IMG/VR virus record: IMGVR_UViG_3300046741_000008
Coordinates: 1 to 56,043 of that record
Strand: one strand, 5' to 3'
Source: a virus
Length of the DNA: 56,043 nt
The notes under the pieces were generated by a model. It was not told the origin of the DNA, made no database searches, and saw nothing but the letters and a program-made list of their open reading frames with translations. Of this stretch, positions 3,488 through 26,979 are shown piece after piece. Made by a program: the position numbers and the translations under genes. Position 1 is the first letter of the stretch. Each line of letters starts with the position of its first letter.

Positions 3488-3597
3488 TTCTTGATGTTGC
3501 GCCTCATGCGAATGGCGGATAGCATGCGTACCTGGACCGGCCTAGGGGGCACCCGAAAAGGCGACTCACTCCCGCCCTGGCCTGCGTCTCTTCTGGA

Positions 3598-4374
3598 GTG
3601 CCTTTGAGTGAAGGCAGAGTGAACTACTTCGAGCACCACATCGGTGACTACGAGCAGGCAACGTCCCACCTGACAGCTTGCGAGGACGGCATCTACGGCC
3701 GCCTGATCCGCTGGTACATGGCCAGCGAGACACCGATCCCACCAGACCTGAAGGCCGTACAGCGCCGTGTCCGAGCCCGTTCGCGTGACGAGGTCAAGGC
3801 AGTCGAAACCGTGCTGGCCGAGTTCTTCGAGCTGCGCACGGACGGCTGGCATCAGCACCGCTGCGACGAGGAAATCGCACGCTTCAAGGACAAGCAAGCG
3901 AAGGCCAAGCGCAGTGCGGACGCACGTTGGAACGCACACCGTTCGGATAGCGACGGCAATGCGAACGCATCACAGGCAGCAGATGCGGTTGACATGCGAA
4001 CGCATAGCGAAGGCAATGCACCGCGCGCCCGTCCCCAGACACCAGACACCAAGCACCAATCTTCGGATGTAGAACATCCTCAGGTAAAACCCGCATCGAG
4101 ATCAAAAACGCTTGGAGTCGATGACCTCATCGCAGAAGGTGTCGATCCATCCCTCGCAAGGGACTGGGTAGCCGTCAGGAAGGCGAAGAAGGCCGTGCTC
4201 ACGCCCACAGCGTGGGAGGCCGTCAAGCGCGAGGCGGAGGTGGCTGGGCTGACGCCGGCAGAGGCGGTAAAGATCGCTGCTGAGAGTGGCTGGCAGGGGT
4301 TCAAAGCCTCTTGGCTCCAGCGCGACCAGGGCCGCAACGGCGGCCACGACGACATCTTTGCGGGGGCTCGGTGA
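3598..4374 (+). CDS. DUF1376 / YdaU-like replication protein (about 258 aa)
   Basis: Residues near the N-terminus (VNYFEHHIGDYEQATSHLT, then DGIYGRLIRWY) match the DUF1376 domain found in phage replication-initiation proteins such as YdaU. The C-terminal part (LGVDDLIAEGVDPSLARDWV then a lysine-rich helix) resembles the tails of these proteins. Start choices: GTG 3598; TTG 3604, with GGAG five bases upstream; or GTG 3619, which begins at the conserved NYFEHHIGDY block behind GAAGG. The middle (about 95-165) is low-complexity and probably a linker. The helicase gene lies just downstream, so the pair probably acts in origin melting and helicase loading. Confidence 0.8.
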   Translation: MPLSEGRVNYFEHHIGDYEQATSHLTACEDGIYGRLIRWYMASETPIPPDLKAVQRRVRARSRDEVKAVETVLAEFFELRTDGWHQHRCDEEIARFKDKQAKAKRSADARWNAHRSDSDGNANASQAADAVDMRTHSEGNAPRARPQTPDTKHQSSDVEHPQVKPASRSKTLGVDDLIAEGVDPSLARDWVAVRKAKKAVLTPTAWEAVKREAEVAGLTPAEAVKIAAESGWQGFKASWLQRDQGRNGGHDDIFAGAR

Positions 4375-9862: not shown

Positions 9863-10095
9863 ACCGCCTTCTGTTCGCGACCGTGCTGCTGGCCGGCTGC
9901 TCCGAACCCCCGGAGCCGATGGCATGGGAGCGCGCCCAGGTTCTCGCCAAGCGCTGCGAGGCCATGGGCCTGAAGCCGGCCTATCAGCGCATGAACCCTC
10001 TTTCCCTCATCCCGGACAAGTCCGGCGGCGCCATCCGCTGGGTGCAATGCATCGACCCGGCGACAGGCGCCCTCTTCAACCAGAGCCAGGAATGA
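9859..10095 (+). CDS. Predicted small lipoprotein (78 aa)
   Basis: The N-terminus MNRLLFATVLLAGCSEPPEP has a short basic start, a hydrophobic stretch and a lipobox (LLAGC), so Cys14 is the likely lipidated residue after signal peptidase II cleavage. The mature part is about 65 residues with two further cysteines. Lipoproteins among phage genes may act in superinfection exclusion or as an outer spanin. Here it is far from the endolysin, so exclusion is more likely, as inference. Confidence 0.65.
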   Translation: MNRLLFATVLLAGCSEPPEPMAWERAQVLAKRCEAMGLKPAYQRMNPLSLIPDKSGGAIRWVQCIDPATGALFNQSQE

Positions 10096-10772
10096 CAGAC
10101 CGAGCCCCAAAAAAACGCCCAGGCTGGGAGACCGTCTGTTGCATCGCCAGCGGCCCCAGCCTCAACGCCGAGCAGCTGGAGCACGTGCGCAAGGCCCAGC
10201 AGGCCGGCCGCGTGAAGGTCATCGGAGTCAACACGACTTACCAGGCCGCCCCGTGGCTCGACGCGCTGTTCGCATGCGACAGCCAATGGTGGCGCGCATA
10301 CCAGCACGATGGCGCCCACGGCCAGGGCTGGCGCTCGTGGCGAAAGGAACACCCGAACGCCGAGACCGTCACGCAGGACGCCTCGACTTACAAGCAGTTC
10401 GGCCTCGACACGCGACAGCGCGGATCGGCTCGGGACGGGCTCGGAATCGGTGAGCTGCACACAGGGTCCAACGGCGGTCACGCTGCGGTCAACTTGGCAT
10501 TTCTGTGGGGCGCCCGGCGCATCATCCTGCTGGGCTACTGCATGAAGCTCGGGCCGAACGGCGAGAAGCACTTTCATGGCGACCATCCCAAGCCTTGTGT
10601 GCAAAGTCAGTTATTTTCGCAATGGGTTCGCAGATTCGAATCGACCGCAAAGGATTTGAAGAAACTAGGCATTGATGTGGTTAACTGCACTCCTGCGTCA
10701 GCACTTCCATGGTTCAGAAGCGGATTGATTGGCACTGAATTGGAGGCATCAAATGACACCACCGCCGAGTGA
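10092..10772 (+). CDS. MptE-like / DUF115-type putative glycosyltransferase-fold protein (226 aa)
   Basis: ATG at 10092 overlaps the previous stop. The opening block CCIASGPSLNAEQLEHV is the nucleotide-binding-like strand-loop of the DUF115/MptE-like group. Further typical blocks are VIGVNTTYQAAPWLD, FACDSQWWRAY and TGSNGGHAAVNLAFLWGARR with IILLGYCM. Phage members are often annotated as glycosyltransferases, but activity is rarely proven. It is the first gene of the sugar-transfer/methyltransfer cluster. The last 170 bases are clearly richer in A+T than the rest and lie against an HNH gene. Confidence 0.7.
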   Translation: MTDRAPKKRPGWETVCCIASGPSLNAEQLEHVRKAQQAGRVKVIGVNTTYQAAPWLDALFACDSQWWRAYQHDGAHGQGWRSWRKEHPNAETVTQDASTYKQFGLDTRQRGSARDGLGIGELHTGSNGGHAAVNLAFLWGARRIILLGYCMKLGPNGEKHFHGDHPKPCVQSQLFSQWVRRFESTAKDLKKLGIDVVNCTPASALPWFRSGLIGTELEASNDTTAE

Positions 10773-11265
10773 AGATGTAAGAGATATCGTCGAATATGAC
10801 AAGCAGACCGGAGAACTGCGTTGGAAAGTCGACATGCGCACAGGCAGTGTGCGCCAGGTTGTCTTAGGGAAGGCTGGTGAAGTTGCTGGGACAAAGAACA
10901 AGCACCACGGCTATGTGACGATCAGAATAAATGGAAGGCAATATATAGCCCATCGAGTCGCATGGTGGTTGGCCACTGGTGAATGGCCAATTGCAATTGA
11001 CCACAAAGATGGCGATAGGGCCAACAACAAATTCGAGAACCTTCGCGCGGCGGATTACAAGATAAATAACCAGAACAGGCGACGTGCAATACCAAATTCG
11101 ACAACTGGTTTTCTCGGCGTAACAAGGACCCCAGAAGGGAGATTCGTCGCCAGGATCGGGGTGAATGGAAAGAACCTCTATTTCGGGACGCACGAGACGC
11201 CAGAACAGGCTCACGAGGCCTACCTCGCCGCCAAACGCGAGTTTCACGAAGGCTGCACGATTTGA
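10753..11265 (+). CDS. HNH homing endonuclease with AP2-like domain (170 aa)
   Basis: The best start is ATG 10753 (MTPPPSEDVRDIVEYDKQTG). Residues 50-110 form the HNH core: HHGYVTIRINGRQYIAHRVA with W, then IAIDHKDGDRANNKFENLR, holding the H-D-H-x-D-x-x-N-N signature. The C-terminal 55 residues (TGFLGVTRTPEGRFVARIGV, NGKNLYFGTHETPEQAHEAY) match the AP2-like DNA-binding domain of phage homing endonucleases. It overlaps the upstream gene by 20 bases, breaking the four-base pattern, and its A+T content is higher than its neighbours'. It is probably a mobile gene. Confidence 0.85.
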   Translation: MTPPPSEDVRDIVEYDKQTGELRWKVDMRTGSVRQVVLGKAGEVAGTKNKHHGYVTIRINGRQYIAHRVAWWLATGEWPIAIDHKDGDRANNKFENLRAADYKINNQNRRRAIPNSTTGFLGVTRTPEGRFVARIGVNGKNLYFGTHETPEQAHEAYLAAKREFHEGCTI

Positions 11266-12053
11266 AGCGCGCCCTCGTCACTCTCAAGGCCCAGCCTCAT
11301 TACCGGCGCGAGTCGTTCGAGGCCGGTCTGCGCGCGATCGGCTTCGATGTCGTGAAGCGGCTGGACGACCCGCGGCCCGGGGATTGCCTCATCGTTTGGA
11401 ACCTGCAGGGAGCCACCGAGAAGCTGGCCGACACCTTCAAGGCGCGCGGCGCGCAGGTGCTGGTTTGCGAAAACGGCTACCTGACGCCGCCCGGCCAGCC
11501 CGGCATGTACGCGGTGAGCCTCGGGGCGCACAACGGCGCTGGCCGCATCCCCGCCGGCGACAGCAGCCGCTGGCGGGCGCTGGGCATAGAGCCGAAGCCC
11601 TGGCGCAAGGAGGGCGACCACATCCTGGTCTGCCAGCAGAGGTCGATCGGCTCCAGGCAGATGGCCAGCCCGCACATGTGGCACCAGAAGGCCGTGGAGC
11701 GGCTGAAGCGCTGGACGAAGCGCCCGATCCGTGTGCGGCCTCACCCTGGCAACCGCAGCGGCGGTGTGCCGCTGGAGCGCGACCTGAAAGGCGCATGGGC
11801 CTGCGTGATCTGGGGCTCGGCAGCTGGCGTGCGGTCGCTGGTAGAGGGGGTCCCGGTGTTTTACGAAGCACCCCGATGGATCTGCAGCGACGCCGCGCTG
11901 CCGCTGCGCGACTGGATCGAGCACCCGCTGTGCAACGATGCGTGGCGCGAGAAAGCCCTGCACCGCATGGCCTGGGGCCAGTGGCAATATGCCGAGATCG
12001 CAACCGGCGGCCCTCTCAAGGCCGTTCTTGACTGCAAGGAGTCCGCAGCATGA
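11262..12053 (+). CDS. GT-B-like glycosyltransferase-type protein (263 aa)
   Basis: A TTG start at 11262 overlaps the HNH stop. The protein opens with a strand MKRALVTLKAQPHYRRESFE and has a two-domain look. A C-terminal block with RPIRVRPHPGNR, then WACVIWGSAAGVRSLVEGVP, resembles the nucleotide-sugar-binding half of GT-B enzymes and capsule-export-type transferases (a RPHP strand followed by a small-residue loop and a conserved glutamate). The donor and acceptor cannot be read from sequence. It is part of the six-gene transferase cluster. Confidence 0.6.
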   Translation: MKRALVTLKAQPHYRRESFEAGLRAIGFDVVKRLDDPRPGDCLIVWNLQGATEKLADTFKARGAQVLVCENGYLTPPGQPGMYAVSLGAHNGAGRIPAGDSSRWRALGIEPKPWRKEGDHILVCQQRSIGSRQMASPHMWHQKAVERLKRWTKRPIRVRPHPGNRSGGVPLERDLKGAWACVIWGSAAGVRSLVEGVPVFYEAPRWICSDAALPLRDWIEHPLCNDAWREKALHRMAWGQWQYAEIATGGPLKAVLDCKESAA

Positions 12054-12586
12054 CGCCCACCGAGAAATTCCACCGCAAGTTCCGCAAGCCCAAGGAAGGG
12101 GCGACGCTGATCGTCGGCTCGCACATCTACCCCACGCGCGAGGACCGGCGCAAGCTGTACGCGGATGCGGTGGGCGTGGACATGCAGGAAGGGCCGGGGG
12201 TCGATGTCGTGGCCAACCTGGAAGAACCGCTCGACTGGATCCCCGAGGAGTTCCTGTTCGATCACATCGAGTGCCGCAGTGTGCTTGAGCACAGTCGCCG
12301 TCCCTGGCTGCTGGCGGCGAACCTGGAGCGCCTGTTGGTGCCGGGTGGGACGTTGGACATCAGCGTTCCTTTCGTCTGGCGCGTGCACAGCTACCCGTCG
12401 GACTACTGGCGCTTCAGCATCGAGGCCGTGCGCGAGCTCTTCCCCAGCATCCAGTGGCGCGCGCTGCGCTACGTGACACAAAAAAGAATTGAGAAGCCAG
12501 ATGCTCCGACGCAGGGGCTCGTGAACGACTCACAAACGTACTTCGCACGCTCTGAAGTACTCGGATTTGGGACCAAGAAATGCTGA
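12050..12586 (+). CDS. SAM-dependent methyltransferase-like protein, C-terminus probably altered (178 aa)
   Basis: ATG at 12050 overlaps the previous stop. The blocks GVDMQEGPGVDVVANLEEPL, FDHIECRSVLEHSRRPW and ANLERLLVPGGTLDISVPFV match class I methyltransferase motifs (acidic end of strand 2, the strand-4 region and the post-IV region with PGG). HSYPSDYWRFSIEAVRELF is typical of methyltransferases near glycan genes. After about residue 143 the sequence becomes A+T richer (12478-12586) and ends next to an HNH gene. The start of motif I is short (LIVGSHIYP), so cofactor binding is uncertain. Confidence 0.7.
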   Translation: MTPTEKFHRKFRKPKEGATLIVGSHIYPTREDRRKLYADAVGVDMQEGPGVDVVANLEEPLDWIPEEFLFDHIECRSVLEHSRRPWLLAANLERLLVPGGTLDISVPFVWRVHSYPSDYWRFSIEAVRELFPSIQWRALRYVTQKRIEKPDAPTQGLVNDSQTYFARSEVLGFGTKKC

Positions 12587-13059
12587 CACAAGCGAGGCTT
12601 CATGAGCTGTTCACGCTGGATGCGGGTAAGTTCAAACGGTTGGTGAGAACGAGCAACCGCATCCGCGTCGGCGACGTTGCTGGATACAAGCGCGATGGCT
12701 ACGTCTTCGTCACCGTAGACGGTAAGGGGTACAGAGCCCATCGGCTCGTCTGGCTGTACATCCACGGCGTCTTGCCGCCGCACGAAGTTGACCACATCAA
12801 CCACATCAAGGACGACAACCGCATTGAGAACCTCAGGCTCGCGACGAAGAGCGAGAACATGCAGAACAGGCGAGGGGCACAAAGCAACAGCAATTCCGGC
12901 GTTCTCGGGGTTTGCTGGTTCAAACCCACGCGACAGTGGGTTTCCCAACTCACTCTCAACGGCAAGCGCGTGCACCATAGTTACCACTACACGTTAGAAG
13001 ACGCCTGTGCCGCCCGGCGCGCCGCTGAGATACGCTTCCACCCATACAGAAGCGCATGA
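12580..13059 (+). CDS. HNH homing endonuclease with AP2-like domain, second copy (159 aa)
   Basis: ATG at 12580 overlaps the methyltransferase stop by seven bases. Residues about 38-90 hold the HNH core (DGYVFVTVDGKGYRAHRLVW, then PPHEVDHINHIKDDNRIENL). The C-terminal region SGVLGVCWFKPTRQWVSQLT with LNGKRVHHSYHYTLEDACAA is the AP2-like DNA-binding domain. It has the same two-domain plan as the gene at 10753, but the sequences are clearly different, so it is a separate acquisition or an old duplication. It is probably a free-standing homing endonuclease. Confidence 0.85.
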   Translation: MLTQARLHELFTLDAGKFKRLVRTSNRIRVGDVAGYKRDGYVFVTVDGKGYRAHRLVWLYIHGVLPPHEVDHINHIKDDNRIENLRLATKSENMQNRRGAQSNSNSGVLGVCWFKPTRQWVSQLTLNGKRVHHSYHYTLEDACAARRAAEIRFHPYRSA

Positions 13060-13910
13060 GAATCCTCGTTACCGGACGCGGCACCTCCGGCAGCTGGCAG
13101 GTGCGCGGGGTACAACTCGGCAAAGCCATCGGCGCCACGGTGAGCCCGAACGCCAGCGATCTCGAGATCCGTGCCCACGACCTGGTGATCCTGGTCAAGC
13201 GGCCGACACCGCAGCTGCTCGAGCGCATCCACCAGGCGCGCAAGCCGCTGGTGTGGGATCAGGTGGACTCGTGGCCGCAGCCTGAAGGCAACCGCTGGGC
13301 TCGAGGTGAGTGCATGGCGTGGCTCGAGCACCAGGTCAAGACCATCAAGCCGGCCGGCATCGTGGCTGCCACTCAGGAGATGGCCTTCGACTGCGGCTGG
13401 GGCGCGCCTGACCAGACGAAGCTGCTCTGGCTGCCACACCACTCGAGGTCCGGTCAGGACGCGAATCCGATCCGCGAGCAAGTGCAGACCGTTGGATACG
13501 AGGGCGGCTTGCAGTACCTCGAGGGCTGGCTTCCGCACATCGAGCGCCAATGTGCAACTCGAGGCTGGCGGTTCCACGTCGCGCCCAAGCGATTGGCTGA
13601 CCTCGACATCGTGCTGGCGCTGCGAACCGACACCGGGTACGCGCCGCGGAACTGGAAATCAGCGGTCAAGGCCGCAAACGCCATGGGCACCGGCACGCCC
13701 ATCATTGCCTGCCGTGAAGGCGGCTACCTCGAGGTGGACAATGGCGGCATGCGCTGGGCTGACACGCCGCTCGAGCTGTCTCGAGCTTTCGACGAGCTGA
13801 CGCCGAAGGATGCTCGAGCAGCTGCAGCGGCCCGGCTCAAGCTCCAGGCGCCGTTCGTTGCGCTCGATCGGCTGGCCAAGGAATACGCGCGCTGGCTCGA
13901 GACCATATGA
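13056..13910 (+). CDS. GT-B glycosyltransferase-like protein (284 aa)
   Basis: ATG at 13056 overlaps the HNH stop. The first strand and glycine-rich loop (MRILVTGRGTSGSWQVRGVQ) and the C-terminal block AVKAANAMGTGTPIIACREG, GGYLEVDNGGMRWADT, resemble the two halves of GT4-type enzymes. There the second half binds the nucleotide sugar through a conserved glycine-rich loop and an acidic residue. A middle segment LVWDQVDSWPQPEGNRW is seen in phage homologues. The target sugar is unknown. It lies in the transferase cluster upstream of the terminase genes. Confidence 0.65.
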   Translation: MRILVTGRGTSGSWQVRGVQLGKAIGATVSPNASDLEIRAHDLVILVKRPTPQLLERIHQARKPLVWDQVDSWPQPEGNRWARGECMAWLEHQVKTIKPAGIVAATQEMAFDCGWGAPDQTKLLWLPHHSRSGQDANPIREQVQTVGYEGGLQYLEGWLPHIERQCATRGWRFHVAPKRLADLDIVLALRTDTGYAPRNWKSAVKAANAMGTGTPIIACREGGYLEVDNGGMRWADTPLELSRAFDELTPKDARAAAAARLKLQAPFVALDRLAKEYARWLETI

Positions 13911-14686
13911 ACCGCGTCGAGTACCTGACCGACCCGGCCCTCGGGACCAAGGCCACAAATTTCATGCAGATCCTGGGCGAGTGCTGCCCGGTGCCGTTTT
14001 CTGCTGTGGAGGCACCAAGCAGTCCCGAGGTGACGCTGATGGTATGCGGCCCAGGCGCCCCCTCACGGCTGGCCATCGCGAACGCCCACCGCGCTAAGGG
14101 CGGCCGGGTGGTGATCTGGGACGGCGGCTACTTCCGGGCACCAGGCTACTGGCGCACCAGCGCCGACCACGAGCACCCACAGCACCTGCTGGACCGCGCG
14201 CCGGCGGACAAGTCGAGATTCGCCGCGCTGAAGATCCAGCTTCGCAACGACTTCAACCCGAAGGGCCACATCATCCTGGTCGGCCTGGGCCCGAAGACCC
14301 GCGACATCATGGACGTGAAGGACTGGGAGGCGCGCAAGCTGTGCGAGCTGCGCCAGCGCTTCCCCAAGGCGAGGATCATCTTCCGACCCAAGCCTAAGAG
14401 GCCGCATCCGGTGCTCAATATTCCGGTCTCCAAAGATGTGCCCATCGAGCAGGTGCTCAGGGGTGCGGCGCTGGTGGTGTGTAAGCATTCAAATTGTGGT
14501 GTCGACGCTGTGGTTGCCGGGATTCCATTCGAGACGGAAGATGGGGCCGCCAAGTGGCTGGATGGCAAGGCCTACACGCCGGCCAATCGCCTGGAGTTCC
14601 TGCAGCGCCTGGCCTGGTTCATGTGGCGTTCGGACGAAGCGCCTCAGGCGTGGACAATGGTGGCCAGAATGTTGGAGACGCCATGA
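13907..14686 (+). CDS. Putative glycan-transfer protein, GT-B-like (259 aa)
   Basis: ATG at 13907 overlaps the previous stop. Blocks GGRVVIWDGGYFRAPGYWR, HIILVGLGPKTRDIMDVKDW, KARIIFRPKPKRPHP and VVCKHSNCGVDAVVAGIPFE follow the order of a nucleotide-sugar-binding domain like those of capsule-type transferases. It shares general architecture with the gene at 11262 (RPHP/RPKP strand, then a small-residue loop). No secretion signal is seen, so it is probably cytoplasmic. The call is by fold-level resemblance only. Confidence 0.55.
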   Translation: MNRVEYLTDPALGTKATNFMQILGECCPVPFSAVEAPSSPEVTLMVCGPGAPSRLAIANAHRAKGGRVVIWDGGYFRAPGYWRTSADHEHPQHLLDRAPADKSRFAALKIQLRNDFNPKGHIILVGLGPKTRDIMDVKDWEARKLCELRQRFPKARIIFRPKPKRPHPVLNIPVSKDVPIEQVLRGAALVVCKHSNCGVDAVVAGIPFETEDGAAKWLDGKAYTPANRLEFLQRLAWFMWRSDEAPQAWTMVARMLETP

Positions 14687-15201
14687 AGGTTCACATTGGA
14701 TGCGGCCGGCACGTTCTCGACGGCTGGGTCAACGTCGACACCCAGCGATCGCCCAAGGCCGCCCGCGCTCCGGACGTGATTGGCGACGCGCTGAGTATCC
14801 CGCTTCCTGACGGGTGTGCATCCGAGGTGATGGCCATTCACCTCCTGGAGCACCTCGCGGCCTGGCAGGTACCAAAGGCCCTGGCCGAGTGGCACCGCCT
14901 GCTCAAGCCTGGCGGCCTGCTGGTATTGGAAATGCCGGATGTCGTGAAGTGCGCCAAAAACCTGGTCAAGCTGATCGAGAAGGGCGACGAGAAGACGCTC
15001 AACTCCCAGGCGATGCACGGCCTCTACGGCGATCCCAGCATGGAAGATCCGTGGATGCTTCACCGGTGGGGGTGGACTCCAAAGACCCTGATACCGGTCC
15101 TGAAGCGCGCCGGCTTCGGACTCTTCAAAGAGCGGCCGACGCAGTGGCATGGCATCGGCAAGGCGCACCGGGATTTCCGCATCGAGTCGAGGAAGGTATG
15201 A
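14683..15201 (+). CDS. SAM-dependent methyltransferase (172 aa)
   Basis: ATG at 14683 overlaps the previous stop. The opening MKVHIGCGRHVLDGWVNVD is a typical motif I plus motif II of small class I methyltransferases (GCG loop, then W-x-N-x-D). MAIHLLEHLAAWQVPKALAE and HRLLKPGGLLVLEMPDV match motifs IV and post-IV. The C-terminal MLHRWGWTPKTLIPVLKRAG is common in methyltransferases found with glycosyltransferases. Length is usual for the group. The substrate could be a sugar or a glycan-bearing acceptor; not determinable here. Confidence 0.8.
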   Translation: MKVHIGCGRHVLDGWVNVDTQRSPKAARAPDVIGDALSIPLPDGCASEVMAIHLLEHLAAWQVPKALAEWHRLLKPGGLLVLEMPDVVKCAKNLVKLIEKGDEKTLNSQAMHGLYGDPSMEDPWMLHRWGWTPKTLIPVLKRAGFGLFKERPTQWHGIGKAHRDFRIESRKV

Positions 15202-15884
15202 GCCTCCTGAACATCTTTACCGGGCACGAAGACCGCGTCGCAATCGGAACCCACGTCTTCGTGCAGTCGGTGCTGGACCACGCCAAGAGCCCGGTGTCGA
15301 TCGCGCCCATCACTCGCATCGCTACGCCTGGCCACTCCGAGGGCTCGAATGCCTTCACCGCACGCAGGTTCCTGGTGCCCCATGCCATGGGCCGCTGCGG
15401 CTTTGCGCTGTTCTGCGACGGCGCCGACATGCTCGCCCGGGCCGACATCAACGAGGTGCTGCAGTACGCCAGCCACCGGCACGCCGTGATGGTGGTCAAG
15501 CATCACTACAAGACCCGCAACGTCCGCAAGTACCGCGGCACGGCCATGGAATCCGACAACGAGGACTACGAGCGCAAGCAGTGGGCCGCCGTGATGTTGT
15601 TCAACTGCCGTCACCCGGTCTGGATCGACGTGACGCCCGAGTTCGTGAAGAAGACGCCAGTCATCGACCTGCTGCAGTTCCGGTTCCTGCCCGAGGAGCT
15701 GATCGGGGAACTGCCGATGGAGTGGAACTGGCTGGCCGACGAGCACGGCGAGAACCAGGCGGCGAAACTCCTGCACTTCACGGCCGGCGTCCCGGCCATC
15801 CCTGCGCATGCATCCGGGCCGATGGCCGACGAGTGGATCGCCACCCGGGCGCGCGCAATGTCAGCAACAGGAGGCGCATCATGA
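15198..15884 (+). CDS. GT-A (GT8-like) glycosyltransferase-type protein (228 aa)
   Basis: ATG at 15198 overlaps the previous stop. The block GRCGFALFCDGADMLARADI contains a D-x-x-D metal-site-like motif (CDGADM) of GT-A enzymes. Further on, WAAVMLFNCRHPVWIDVTPE and the C-terminal AKLLHFTAGVPAIPAHASGP fit GT8-like transferases, in which the late histidine/threonine region binds the donor. The lysine-rich segment KHHYKTRNVRKYRGTAM lies between them. It closes the six-gene cluster and probably acts on the same acceptor as the others, by inference. Confidence 0.65.
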   Translation: MSLLNIFTGHEDRVAIGTHVFVQSVLDHAKSPVSIAPITRIATPGHSEGSNAFTARRFLVPHAMGRCGFALFCDGADMLARADINEVLQYASHRHAVMVVKHHYKTRNVRKYRGTAMESDNEDYERKQWAAVMLFNCRHPVWIDVTPEFVKKTPVIDLLQFRFLPEELIGELPMEWNWLADEHGENQAAKLLHFTAGVPAIPAHASGPMADEWIATRARAMSATGGAS

Positions 15885-16312
15885 GCTCAACGCAAGAACA
15901 CCCCCGCCCGGCCTGGATCCACCCGGAGCACCCTGGAATCGGCTGCAGCACCAGCCTGAAGCGCCTGGAGGGCACCGAACCAGAGGTCGGCGGCGTGATC
16001 ATCTTCTTCCCCAGCGGCCTGTTCCATGACATCAGCTGGCGCGCCGTGCAGCACATTACCCCAACGAAGGAAGCGGCGGTTCGCTTCGTCGGCCAGATCG
16101 TCGAGGACCTGAACAAGAAGGCAGCTCGAGCAGAAGGCCCAGCCCGCGAAGCCATCGAGCAGGACTTGGCCCGCACGAACTGGGTCAGCGTCACCGCAGC
16201 GGTGCAGCGGGTGATCATGGACTGGAACGACAAGCTGTCCACCGCCATCAGTGCCAAAATGGCCCAGCAGTTCGGCGGCAACCCCTGGCCCCCGAAGCAC
16301 CGAACCCACTGA
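15881..16312 (+). CDS. Hypothetical protein before the terminase genes (143 aa)
   Basis: ATG at 15881 overlaps the previous stop. The protein starts MSSTQEHPRPAWIHPEHPGI and is mostly helical afterwards, ending with NDKLSTAISAKMAQQFGGNP. No domain is recognised. It is the last gene in the four-base-overlap series and is followed by a separate ribosome site for the terminase small subunit. Confidence 0.65.
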   Translation: MSSTQEHPRPAWIHPEHPGIGCSTSLKRLEGTEPEVGGVIIFFPSGLFHDISWRAVQHITPTKEAAVRFVGQIVEDLNKKAARAEGPAREAIEQDLARTNWVSVTAAVQRVIMDWNDKLSTAISAKMAQQFGGNPWPPKHRTH

Positions 16313-16330: not shown

Positions 16331-16864
16331 ATGCCGATCCTGAAGAACGCCAAGCACGAGAGATTCGCCCGCGAGTACGTCACAGACCGCAACGGCACAC
16401 AGGCTGCCATCAGGGCCGGTTACTCGAAGCGGAGCGCAGCCGAGCAGGCTTACGATCTCCTCAGGAACCCTCAGATAGCCTCCAGGGTCGATGAACTGAG
16501 CCAGCGCACCCTGCGCCAAGCTGACATCACAGCCGAACGCGTCATGCTGGAACTGGCACGCCTGGCCTTCGCTGACGAGCGCAAGTTGTTCGACGAGAAG
16601 GGCGTGCTCAAGGCCCCTCACACCCTCGACGACGACACCGCAGCCGCTATCTCATCCATGGAGTTCGCTGAACCGGCGAAGGGTAAGAAGCAGGGCGCTG
16701 TGCGCCGCGTGCGCTTGGCGGGTAAGGAAGCCGCTCTACGCATGCTGGCCCAGCGCTTCAAGCTGATCGGCAGCGAGGCGGACGAGGCGCTGAACAACCT
16801 GGCGATGTCCTTCGCCGAGAAGGTTGCAGCGGCCCGCGCACGCCGCAAGGACGAAAGCAAGTAG
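16331..16864 (+). CDS. terS: Terminase small subunit (177 aa)
   Basis: Residues 5-60 (NAKHERFAREYVTDRNGTQA, AIRAGYSKRSAAEQAYDLLR, NPQIASRVDEL) match the N-terminal helix-turn-helix of the Terminase_2 family, which binds the packaging site in the phage genome. The rest is helical and would form the oligomerisation ring. The C-terminal tail is basic (KVAAARARRKDESK). It lies directly upstream of a small gene and TerL, the usual order. Ribosome site GAGGAA precedes the ATG. Confidence 0.9.
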   Translation: MPILKNAKHERFAREYVTDRNGTQAAIRAGYSKRSAAEQAYDLLRNPQIASRVDELSQRTLRQADITAERVMLELARLAFADERKLFDEKGVLKAPHTLDDDTAAAISSMEFAEPAKGKKQGAVRRVRLAGKEAALRMLAQRFKLIGSEADEALNNLAMSFAEKVAAARARRKDESK

Positions 16865-17039: not shown

Positions 17040-17300
17040 ATGAAGCCCACCAAGCCAGGCAACCACCTGATCGACCCGCAGCGCATCCGCGCGCTGGGCA
17101 CCGGCATCGGCCAGAGCCAGCAGCGCAGCAAGACCACCGGCGGCATGCGAGCGCAGAAGGTCGCTGACATGATGACGCCGAAGGTTCGGAGCATCGCCGC
17201 CCCGGGCTACCCGCCCGTCGATCCGATGATGGCCGACATCCGGCAGGACTATCCCGGGCTGGACGCCGCGCTTCCGGTCAACGGCGACGTTCCCTGCTGA
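17040..17300 (+). CDS. Hypothetical protein between TerS and TerL (86 aa)
   Basis: ATG at 17040 is preceded by a strong GGAGG four bases upstream, which fixes the start. An in-frame extension to 16824 would run inside TerS. The 86-residue product (MKPTKPGNHLIDPQRIRALG) is basic at first and proline-rich later (VRSIAAPGYPPVDPMMADIR). It overlaps TerL (TGATG). The 175 bases before it (16865-17039) hold no convincing gene. Function unknown; packaging context. Confidence 0.7.
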   Translation: MKPTKPGNHLIDPQRIRALGTGIGQSQQRSKTTGGMRAQKVADMMTPKVRSIAAPGYPPVDPMMADIRQDYPGLDAALPVNGDVPC

Positions 17301-18838
17301 TGGGAACAGCTGGCGCCCAGGCCAGCGCGCCGATGAGCGAGCGCCAGCAGATTGAGGCCGCGCTCGCGGAGATAGCCGATCGGTTCGTCGAATACGAGTT
17401 CGACCCGCTCGGCTTTGTCATGTGGGCCTTCCCCTGGGGCGTGCCTGGTACTGACCTCGAGGGTGAGGATGGGCCGGAGCAGTGGCAGATCGACCAGCTC
17501 ACCCGCATTGGGGACAAGCTGCGCGCTGGCGCCGACCTCGGGGCGGTGCTCAAAGAGGACATCAGCGCCGGCCACGGCGTCGGCAAGAGCGCCGAGGTTG
17601 CGTGGCTGATCCTCTGGGCCATGTCCCGCGAGGACACCCGAGGCGTCGTGACGGCGACCACGGCCACGCAGCTCAAGACGAAGACCTGGGCCGAGCTGGC
17701 CAAGTGGTATCAGCTCTACGTGGCGAAAGAGCTATTCACGCTCACCACGGAGTCGCTTTACTCGGCTGACCCTGACCACGCCAAGACGTGGCGGATCGAC
17801 GCGGTGCCGTGGTCGGTGTCGAACACCGAGTCGTTCGCCGGCATGCACAACAAGGGCAAGCGCATCCTGCTGATCTTCGACGAGGCCTCAGGCATCGACG
17901 ACAAGATCTGGGAGGTCGCCGAGGGCGCGCTTACCGACGCGAAGACGCAGATCGTCTGGTGCCGCTACGGCAACCCGACGCAGACCACCGGCGAGTTCCA
18001 CAAGCGCTGCACGCGGCCGAAGCCTGGCATCAACGAGTACCACCGGGTCGACAGCCGCACGGTCAGGTTCACGAACAAGAAGCAGATCCAGGCGTGGGTC
18101 GACGAGTACGGCGAGGACAGCGACTTCGTGCGCGTGCGCGTCAAGGGCCAGTTCCCGCGGGCCGGCGCATCCAACTTCATCAGCCCGGAGCTGGTGGAGA
18201 ACGCGCGCCGCCGTCGCGTGCCGCGCATGGCTTGGCAGGCCTATCCCATCATCCTGAGCGTCGACCCGGCTCGCTTCGGCGACGACTGGAGCGTCATCAC
18301 GATACGCCAGGGCCTGAAGGTCCACTACCAGGTGTCGATGTGGGGGTTCGACGGGCCGGAGCTGGCTGGCCGCATCTGGGAGCTGCTCCAGAAGCTGGAG
18401 AACGTTTCGTGCATCGTCTACGACGCCAACGGAAACGGGGCCGACCTCGACAGCGCGCTGAGGCGCATGCCGGGCCTACCGCCGCTCGTGCCGGTGATGT
18501 GGGGCGTGCCGGCCAAGGACGACAAGCAGTATTTCAACCAGCGCAGCGAGTGCTGGGGAAAGATGCGCGACTGGATGAAGGACGGTGAGGTGCCCGACGT
18601 CGACGAGCTGGCCGATGAGCTGACGAGCATGGACTACGGCTACGACGCGCTGTTTCGCATCCAGTTGGTCAGCAAGCAGGACATGAAGCGCGAGGGGAAG
18701 AAGTCGCCCGATCACGCCGACAGCCTGGCGTTGAGCTTCATCCCGGAGCTGATGGATCGCAAGATCGTCTCGGCCAAGGCCAGGCCGGTGCGCAGCCGCA
18801 AAATCGTTTGGTCCGGCAACGGGCTCGGAGTAGGATGA
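17300..18838 (+). CDS. terL: Terminase large subunit (512 aa)
   Basis: This is the DNA-packaging motor. The ATPase domain has Walker A at residues 89-97 (SAGHGVGKS), Walker B at 189-195 (ILLIFDE with Asp194-Glu195), and a coupling region after it. The RNase H-fold nuclease domain shows the first acidic strand at 318-330 (ILSVDPARFGDDW, Asp322), a second at about 372-380 (IVYDANGNG, Asp375) and a late acidic site in PDHADSLALSF (about 475-485). Length is normal for the family. ATG overlaps the preceding stop. The packaging strategy (headful or cos) cannot be told from sequence alone. Confidence 0.95.
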   Translation: MGTAGAQASAPMSERQQIEAALAEIADRFVEYEFDPLGFVMWAFPWGVPGTDLEGEDGPEQWQIDQLTRIGDKLRAGADLGAVLKEDISAGHGVGKSAEVAWLILWAMSREDTRGVVTATTATQLKTKTWAELAKWYQLYVAKELFTLTTESLYSADPDHAKTWRIDAVPWSVSNTESFAGMHNKGKRILLIFDEASGIDDKIWEVAEGALTDAKTQIVWCRYGNPTQTTGEFHKRCTRPKPGINEYHRVDSRTVRFTNKKQIQAWVDEYGEDSDFVRVRVKGQFPRAGASNFISPELVENARRRRVPRMAWQAYPIILSVDPARFGDDWSVITIRQGLKVHYQVSMWGFDGPELAGRIWELLQKLENVSCIVYDANGNGADLDSALRRMPGLPPLVPVMWGVPAKDDKQYFNQRSECWGKMRDWMKDGEVPDVDELADELTSMDYGYDALFRIQLVSKQDMKREGKKSPDHADSLALSFIPELMDRKIVSAKARPVRSRKIVWSGNGLGVG

Positions 18839-26037: not shown

Positions 26038-26979
26038 ATGGGCGTTCCACGCGCATCAGGTATCCCGGACTATGGTCCCAGCGGTACCGTCAAATTCCTT
26101 CCCGAGGTCTGGTCGGGCAAGCTGGTCGAGAAGTTCTACAAGACCACGGTCTTCGGTGAAATCGCCAGCACCGACTACGAGGGCGAGATCGCCGGCTTCG
26201 GCGCGAACGTGATCATCCGGACCATTCCGGACATCACGGTCAGCGACTACGTGATCGGCGAGGGGCTGACGCCTCAATACCCGTCGCGAAACTCGGTGAC
26301 GCTGTCGATCGACAAGGCCAAGTCGTTCAACGTGGCGCTGAACACGGTGGATAGCCGTCAATCGGACCTGGACCTCGCGGACGTGTTCGCGAACGACGGT
26401 TCGATGCAGCTGCGCATCGCGGCCGACGCCGACATGCTGGAGACGATCCCGGCGGATGTCAGTGCGGACAACAGCGGCTCCACCGCTGGCGCTGACTCCA
26501 ACGACATCGACCTCGGCACTGCCGCGTCTCCGCGTGCCATCTCGGCCGCCAACGCCGTCGAACTGTTCACTGACATGGGTCAGGTGCTGGACGAGCAGAG
26601 CGTCAGCGACGAAGGCCGTTGGACGGTGATCCCGCCGTGGCTGACCAACCTGATCAAGAACAGCGAGCTGAAGATTGCCAGCCTGGCCGGCGACGGGGTT
26701 TCGATCCTGCGCAATGGCAAGGTTGGCGAGATCGACCGCTTCACGATCTACCAGTCGCGCAACATCCTGCGCCAGACGAGCCCGGCCGTGGCGTCCTACG
26801 TCATGTTCGGTCACTCGGCCGGCCTGACGTTCGCGGCGCAGATCGTCGAGTGCCAGATGATCGACAACCCGAGCGACTTCGGTTACCTCATCCGTGGCCT
26901 GATGGTCTACGGCTTCGAGGTGATCGAGCCGTCGTACGTCGGCACCGCTGTCGTCGCCAAGGCACCGGCCTCGCCGTAA
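26038..26979 (+). CDS. Major capsid protein (313 aa)
   Basis: It follows the scaffold gene and has a strong ribosome site (AGGAG). Features typical of HK97-fold capsid proteins of this group are a short N-arm, the block WSGKLVEKFYKTTVFGEIAS, beta-rich GANVIIRTIPDITVSDYVIG, and a C-terminal domain with YVMFGHSAGLTFAAQIVECQ and YLIRGLMVYGFEVIEP. Length is normal. No delta-domain protease is present nearby, fitting scaffold-dependent assembly. Confidence 0.85.
   Translation: MGVPRASGIPDYGPSGTVKFLPEVWSGKLVEKFYKTTVFGEIASTDYEGEIAGFGANVIIRTIPDITVSDYVIGEGLTPQYPSRNSVTLSIDKAKSFNVALNTVDSRQSDLDLADVFANDGSMQLRIAADADMLETIPADVSADNSGSTAGADSNDIDLGTAASPRAISAANAVELFTDMGQVLDEQSVSDEGRWTVIPPWLTNLIKNSELKIASLAGDGVSILRNGKVGEIDRFTIYQSRNILRQTSPAVASYVMFGHSAGLTFAAQIVECQMIDNPSDFGYLIRGLMVYGFEVIEPSYVGTAVVAKAPASP

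Follow-up and report, generated by a model that had tools for sequence, protein, structure and literature searches.

Glycosylation of virion proteins is already known from mycobacteriophages, Che8 among them (Freeman et al. 2023, through citations in PMC12619734 and PMC11256854). In the cited accounts, glycosyltransferases of the phage are proposed, or have been shown, to decorate capsid and tail-tube subunits. These phages have actinobacterial hosts, and the genes of cluster F1 (Maravista) are described as lying near the 3' end of the genome. A system alike in kind, as compared by description, is proposed here for the IMG/VR virus record IMGVR_UViG_3300046741_000008, whose 56,043 bases were analysed as a whole and are called the window below. 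A block at 10092-15884 of the window comprises seven enzyme genes, all on the plus strand, in the order DUF115/GT42-like protein, GT-B1, methyltransferase 1, GT-B2, GT-B3, methyltransferase 2, and GT8-like GT-A. The best explanation of this block, held with moderate confidence, is an exchangeable module that would equip a virion protein with a methylated glycan.

Unlike the mycobacteriophage genes, the window cassette has a conserved seven-gene order (three GT-B, one GT-A, DUF115, and two methyltransferases) that lies in or near virion operons, and its glycan is a predicted one. Relatives of some of its genes are found in other phages. In phage D3, orf7 (34% identical to the DUF115 cassette gene, phrog_4603) sits between capsid and head-tail adaptor, and in P7, hdmB (31% identical to the same gene) belongs to an operon annotated 'head morphogenesis', which also has a glycosyltransferase-annotated gene. 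D3 and P7 differ from the window in having one to three such genes only, and no relatives of GT-B1, GT-B2, or GT-B3 were found there. The head operon of podophage ctDrO704 has a GT-A gene and an FkbM methyltransferase gene after the capsid gene. In the Caulobacter giant phage CcrColossus, gp126-gp131 include relatives of DUF115, GT-B1 (37-39%), and GT-A, together with a methyltransferase and a GT9 enzyme, and the set sits between tail-protein genes and lysis genes. CcrColossus differs in that GT-B2 was not found; indeed, no GT-B2 was found in cultured phage genomes. Glycosyltransferases are not mentioned in the main text of the CcrColossus genome paper (PMC3556154). An earlier note on the window, made from its letters alone, had called such a pathway not a described system. 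This stands for the gene set, of which no description was found in the open-licence literature (which leaves out most subscription papers), but not for virion glycosylation as such.

The block is as closely coupled as that note had supposed. Adjoining genes overlap by 4 nt, apart from overlaps of 20 and 7 nt at the starts of two HNH genes. The gene chain continues from the GT-A gene, again with a 4-nt overlap, into a small conserved gene at 15881-16312 (plus strand), which heads the packaging operon and forms the link between the cassette and the late genes. The gene for the terminase small subunit (TerS) begins 18 nt beyond it, and orthologues of the small gene lie directly 5' of TerS in three related records (G001, G002, and G041).

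Recurrence beside virion genes and exchange between capsids

Iterated searches of IMG/VR gave 24 GT-B2 loci, 57 GT-B1 stretches, and more than 579 GT-A stretches, and 171 loci were gene-labelled by profile hidden Markov models. The in-house gene caller yielded some shadow open reading frames (e.g., in L002 and L008), and gene counts are approximate. The order DUF115 - GT-B1 - (MT1) - GT-B2 - GT-B3 - MT2 - GT-A, where MT1 and MT2 are the two methyltransferases, is repeated in about 35 IMG/VR contigs. Since the same order recurs in this way, the block is not a product of chance. A search for the same gene set in other phages had been recommended in the note, and its outcome shows a widespread cassette in place of an isolated novelty of this phage.

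The most common setting of the window-type cassette is the siphophage head-tail operon, in unrelated phages. A head or tail gene lies no more than three genes from the cassette in 27 of 35 GT-B2-type contigs. When 132 flanking proteins were scanned independently with PHROG, the top families were head-tail adaptor Ad1 (18), head closure Hc1 (17), neck (17), and head-tail adaptor (14), and portal, tail terminator, and major tail proteins were likewise among the top-ranked ones. The insertion points vary within the same operon, between capsid and adaptor, head closure and gp10, or tail tube and tape measure. Because the insertion point differs while the operon stays the same, these positions point to repeated acquisition over simple inheritance. 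The case for a virion protein as the target is built chiefly on the linkage to virion genes. The note had left a virion protein and a host surface glycan side by side; the genomic context favours the former, and the host glycan is the less favoured of the two.

The linkage can also be followed within one capsid lineage. Of 34 late genes, the window shares 22-24 with G001 and G002, its two nearest relatives with the cassette; for cassette genes the figure is 6-7 of 7, against 1 of 47 for other genes. Both relatives were picked via GT-B2 and are hence biased for linkage, and a capsid-only search was run as a correction. In this sample, relatives were fetched by the window capsid protein alone, and 12 of the 13 records of at least 38 kb contain a GT-A gene and two GT-B1-type genes. 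GT-B2 is present in none of these 12 cassette-bearing records. G031 was considered as a cassette-free member of the lineage and rejected: it is a linear contig with both ends at the cassette site of its relatives, so the absence is uninformative.

Annotation of 14 cassette regions, from the 12 records and two shorter ones, defines a version B beside the version A of the window, and most of the capsid-fetched cassettes are of version B. Version B runs DUF115 - GT-B1 - GT-B1' - methyltransferase, usually with a second methyltransferase, followed by GT9-like, FkbM, or other GT-A-type genes and, last, GT-A. In G041 the version-B cassette lies immediately before TerS, which is the exact position of version A in the window, and version B is also found in siphophage head operons (e.g., L007, L125, and L131). 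The versions are therefore exchangeable across capsids: a single capsid lineage can bear A or B, and unrelated capsids are served by these two as well.

Further arrangements were observed among the loci. Small proteins with Ser/Ala/Pro-rich tails are encoded directly before DUF115, as D3 orf6.5 (L016:4852-5139) and as the post-capsid gene in L009, L044, L059, L131, and L146. The tail made this small post-capsid protein a candidate acceptor, but a glycosylation site there was not borne out: motifs over all loci did not clearly outnumber those of shuffled sequences. Some head-operon cassettes (L010:12974-14956, L012:10937-12898, and L137) hold a large protein that by eye resembles cobalamin-dependent radical SAM (S-adenosylmethionine) enzymes, along with a protein like NAD-dependent sugar epimerases. 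In contigs of T4-like or other large phages (L005, L013, L152, L153, and L167), arrays of GT-B1 paralogues occur with GT-A, FkbM, and epimerase genes, distant from virion genes and, in L005 and L013, close to replication genes; this is a different, larger glycan locus. Three GT-B1 paralogues, DUF115, and GT-A-type genes also stand beside housekeeping genes of a bacterial chromosome in L019-L023 (Inquilinus limosus, with one record titled Mycobacterium sp. that matches Inquilinus and may be misnamed). A chromosomal cluster of this type was perhaps the source of the phage enzymes.

Predicted folds and families of the enzymes

Pfam, PHROG, and structure comparisons confirmed the composition of the block that had been read from the letters: a DUF115/MptE-like protein, GT-B proteins (three in number), a GT-A protein, and two SAM methyltransferases. 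The first cassette gene (10092-10772, plus strand, as are all genes below unless stated) encodes a DUF115/MptE-like, GT42-sialyltransferase-like protein of 226 aa, which matches phrog_4603 'alpha-2,3-sialyltransferase' (5e-39) over 193 residues. GT-B1 (11262-12053; 263 aa, TTG start), GT-B2 (13056-13910; 284 aa), and GT-B3 (13907-14686; 259 aa) have on their own no significant family match in Pfam or PHROG, and structure prediction was needed for this reason. AlphaFold was given alignments of 46 relatives for GT-B1 and 33 relatives for GT-B2, and the predicted local distance difference test (pLDDT) scores were 94.6 and 97.2, respectively.

In Foldseek comparisons of the GT-B1 model with the PDB, ranks 1-27 were all retaining transferases of 3-deoxy-D-manno-octulosonic acid (Kdo), namely KpsC, WbbB, and KrkA, with a best E of 4e-7 and template modelling (TM) scores of about 0.5-0.58. 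GT-B1 has the predicted fold of KpsC/WbbB but is shorter, with 12-15% identity. Its profile match to KpsC is weak (E 0.002) and covers the HP and S-x-G regions. Relatives of GT-B1 match PF05159 (Capsule_synth) and DUF6716 in Pfam. The name Kdo transferase was rejected for GT-B1, since the likeness is one of fold only. GT-B3 is a distant paralogue of GT-B1 according to sequence searches, with about 30% identity to the GT-B1 proteins of relatives (E to 1e-10).

GT-B2 has a predicted GT4-like GT-B fold. Its Foldseek matches include Gtf3/GtfC, SenB, BshA, and PimB' (best E 2e-8, TM to 0.74), and 6 of its 33 relatives match Glyco_trans_1_2 in Pfam. Gtf3/GtfC, enzymes of glycan extension on serine-rich repeat proteins, are among the best of these matches (11-13% identity) but are not singled out, as many other GT4-type enzymes match GT-B2 equally well. 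The presence of small-molecule transferases among the best matches (BshA, SenB, and tetrahydrobiopterin glucosyltransferase) would fit another explanation, in which the block is a late-operon cargo that glycosylates some other target, such as a small molecule, a phage protein that is not part of the virion, or a protein of host defence. Such a cargo seems quite improbable, however, as the conserved order of five transferases and two methyltransferases fits an oligosaccharide better than a single transfer, and the link with virion genes would be left unexplained.

The last enzyme of the block, GT-A (15198-15884; 228 aa), is GT8-like, matches phrog_28018 (1.4e-25), and is related to annotated nucleotide-diphospho-sugar transferases. 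Its profile matches WbbM (E 2e-5) with the DxD motif aligned, and also GT8 structures. In place of DxD it has DGAD; both Asp are invariant in ten relatives, and the window and four of these have one extra residue between them (DGAD or DACD). In the AlphaFold and Foldseek results and the profile matches, the proposed transferases of the block thus fall into glycosyltransferase folds, and the placement in other folds against which the note had warned did not occur. With this DGAD variant, and with the catalytic Asp of KpsC unplaced in GT-B1, the donor sugars are not assignable from these sequences.

Both methyltransferases are predicted to have the class I SAM fold. Methyltransferase 1 (12050-12586; 178 aa) matches Methyltransf_23/12/11 at 0.001-0.006, under the cut-off, and shares 67% identity with its positional counterpart in G002. 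Methyltransferase 2 (14683-15201; 172 aa) matches Methyltransf_11 (2.3e-9) over the cut-off, and its nearest named NCBIfam model, under the cut-off at 3.8e-7, is the mycofactocin oligosaccharide methyltransferase MftM, which supports methylation of an oligosaccharide. A tRNA-Gly called by ARAGORN inside the methyltransferase 2 gene (14875-14963, minus strand) is probably spurious, as five loci that have this gene gave no such prediction.

Genes within and around the block

While the enzymes named in the note are all present, two HNH endonuclease genes between them had been overlooked. These genes (HNH_3, phrog_99) lie at 10753-11265 (PF13392, 2.9e-12; phrog_99, 1.8e-56) and at 12580-13059 (PF13392, 4.3e-18; phrog_99, 3.5e-62). 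The endonucleases are AP2-type, and the G+C contents of their genes are 52% and 58%, respectively, against 63% for the block. Most other cassettes have no HNH gene at the first HNH position of the window. Given their lower G+C and their absence from most other cassettes, the two genes are probable homing-type passengers. G001 also has HNH genes, within its cassette (L175:16890-17279) and among its late genes, which are kin of the second HNH gene of the window.

The window has a 127-bp terminal repeat and on this ground is probably a complete genome. The phage is an epsilon15/AF-like podophage, in which portal-type, capsid, and internal virion proteins were recognised. TerS is encoded at 16331-16864 (PF03592, 4.2e-30), and the terminase large subunit at 17300-18838 (42-45% identity in tblastn to Pseudomonas phage AF and Salmonella phage epsilon15). 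The major capsid protein, encoded at 26038-26979 (phrog_267, 1e-46; relatives 66-88%), is one possible candidate for the glycan acceptor. Replication genes for a primosomal protein, a DnaB-like helicase, and a Holliday junction resolvase are located at the left of the window, and the recombination genes Erf, exonuclease, and NinB at the right, on the minus strand. An int-alpA RNA is predicted at 3535-3600 (plus strand), just 5' of a replication gene (Rfam, 37.4 bits against a gathering threshold of 35.8); no integrase was detected in the genome. An early protein of G001 and G002 (L178, the G002 early region) matches the Acb2/Tad1 hairpin domain PF24729 (1.9e-15) of an anti-defence sponge family.

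The other genes of the window and of its relatives also bear on phage DNA as a target, glycosylated as a hypermodified base. DNA-modifying phage glycosyltransferases are well known, as the reference list of PMC12619734 indicates, and a DNA C5-methylase occurs in some cassette-bearing phages. The window and G002, however, lack this methylase, and no base-modifying Pfam family is among the matches listed (25 of 28) for the other proteins of the window. The window also lacks a hydroxymethylase of the thymidylate-synthase fold, which was found in none of 27 cassette records in a search that detected its positive controls; Tet_JBP was likewise found in none of the 27, in a search without a positive control. 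Moreover, replication modules are wholly different among phages with the same cassette. DNA is thus a very improbable target, in agreement with the note, which had not taken hypermodification for the simplest reading.

Candidate targets and the proposed role of the cassette

Several observations weigh against a glycan on the virion. The catalytic Asp of KpsC (D160) cannot be placed in GT-B1: the stretches aligned with KpsC, 34-73 and 166-266 of the chain, end short of it, and the corresponding part of the GT-B1 alignment has no conserved Asp. The DUF115 protein matches PF01973 at 2.9e-5 with 24.3 bits, against a cut-off of 34.6. A Ser/Thr motif shared by the flanking proteins was sought over all loci, and none stood out clearly from shuffled sequences. 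As the last element of the early strand in G001, G002, and most version-B podophages, the cassette is convergent with the lysis genes and outside the virion operon; linkage in these phages therefore rests on co-occurrence with the capsid lineage and not on operon position. Finally, the core of lipopolysaccharide (LPS) is built by the same families as occur here, namely GT42-, Kdo-transferase-, GT8-, and GT9-like ones.

The last two observations also fit the main rival explanation, in which the cassette acts late in infection on a glycan of the host surface (LPS core, capsule, or glycoprotein), e.g., against the trapping of progeny on debris or against superinfection. The Kdo-transferase fold, the GT8-like match to WbbM, the sialyltransferase-like DUF115 protein, and the GT9-like and FkbM genes of version B are all of LPS or capsule type. 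The location of the cassette would fit as well, since among podophages that share the capsid lineage of the window it mostly lies outside the virion operon. Membrane-associated core transferases are often basic, and several enzymes of the block are basic too, with isoelectric points of 8.9-9.7. However, no membrane span is predicted in any block enzyme, and the Pfam and PHROG results for the block include no flippase, polymerase, or bactoprenol-enzyme families. The repeated insertion into head-tail operons and the near-universal tie to one capsid lineage would be unexpected, though compatible. Classical lysogenic conversion is an unlikely form of this rival, since no integrase was found in the window or in 20 of the 27 cassette records, and none in G001 or G002; O-antigen conversion in particular was rejected on the lack of an integrase in the window and of a membrane span in the block. 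A host surface glycan is, on balance, an unlikely target.

A glycan on the virion protein would be assembled in the cytoplasm, and the enzymes look cytoplasmic because they are without a predicted membrane span. No genes for nucleotide-sugar synthesis were found in the window, and nucleotide sugars of the host would serve as donors. The DUF115/GT42-like enzyme, the three GT-B enzymes, and the GT-A enzyme would transfer sugars stepwise, with a head, neck, or tail protein of the particle as the predicted acceptor. The two small methyltransferases might act on the chain by O-methylation of its sugars, which may serve as a cap. As a module that travels whole and is swapped between phages, the cassette would let related capsids bear different glycans. 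The benefit could be, e.g., shielding of the particle or tuning of adsorption. In a wider form that we put forward tentatively, a horizontally exchanged, virion-linked cassette in at least two interchangeable versions might provide mutually unrelated tailed phages of Gram-negative bacteria with a coat of methylated sugars, whose glycan 'serotype' differs within a capsid lineage.

Virion glycosylation has been well documented in few phages so far. The recurrence of the cassette in unrelated phages, beside or within their shell-building genes, suggests that sugar-coating of a phage's own particles may be widespread. The cassette offers concrete genes, a cultured phage with the core genes (CcrColossus), and two versions for comparison. 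If it does travel with head-tail genes across a large number of uncultured siphophages and podophages, sugar coats may be a common feature of phages, which would have consequences for adsorption, immune recognition, phage therapy, and structural work.

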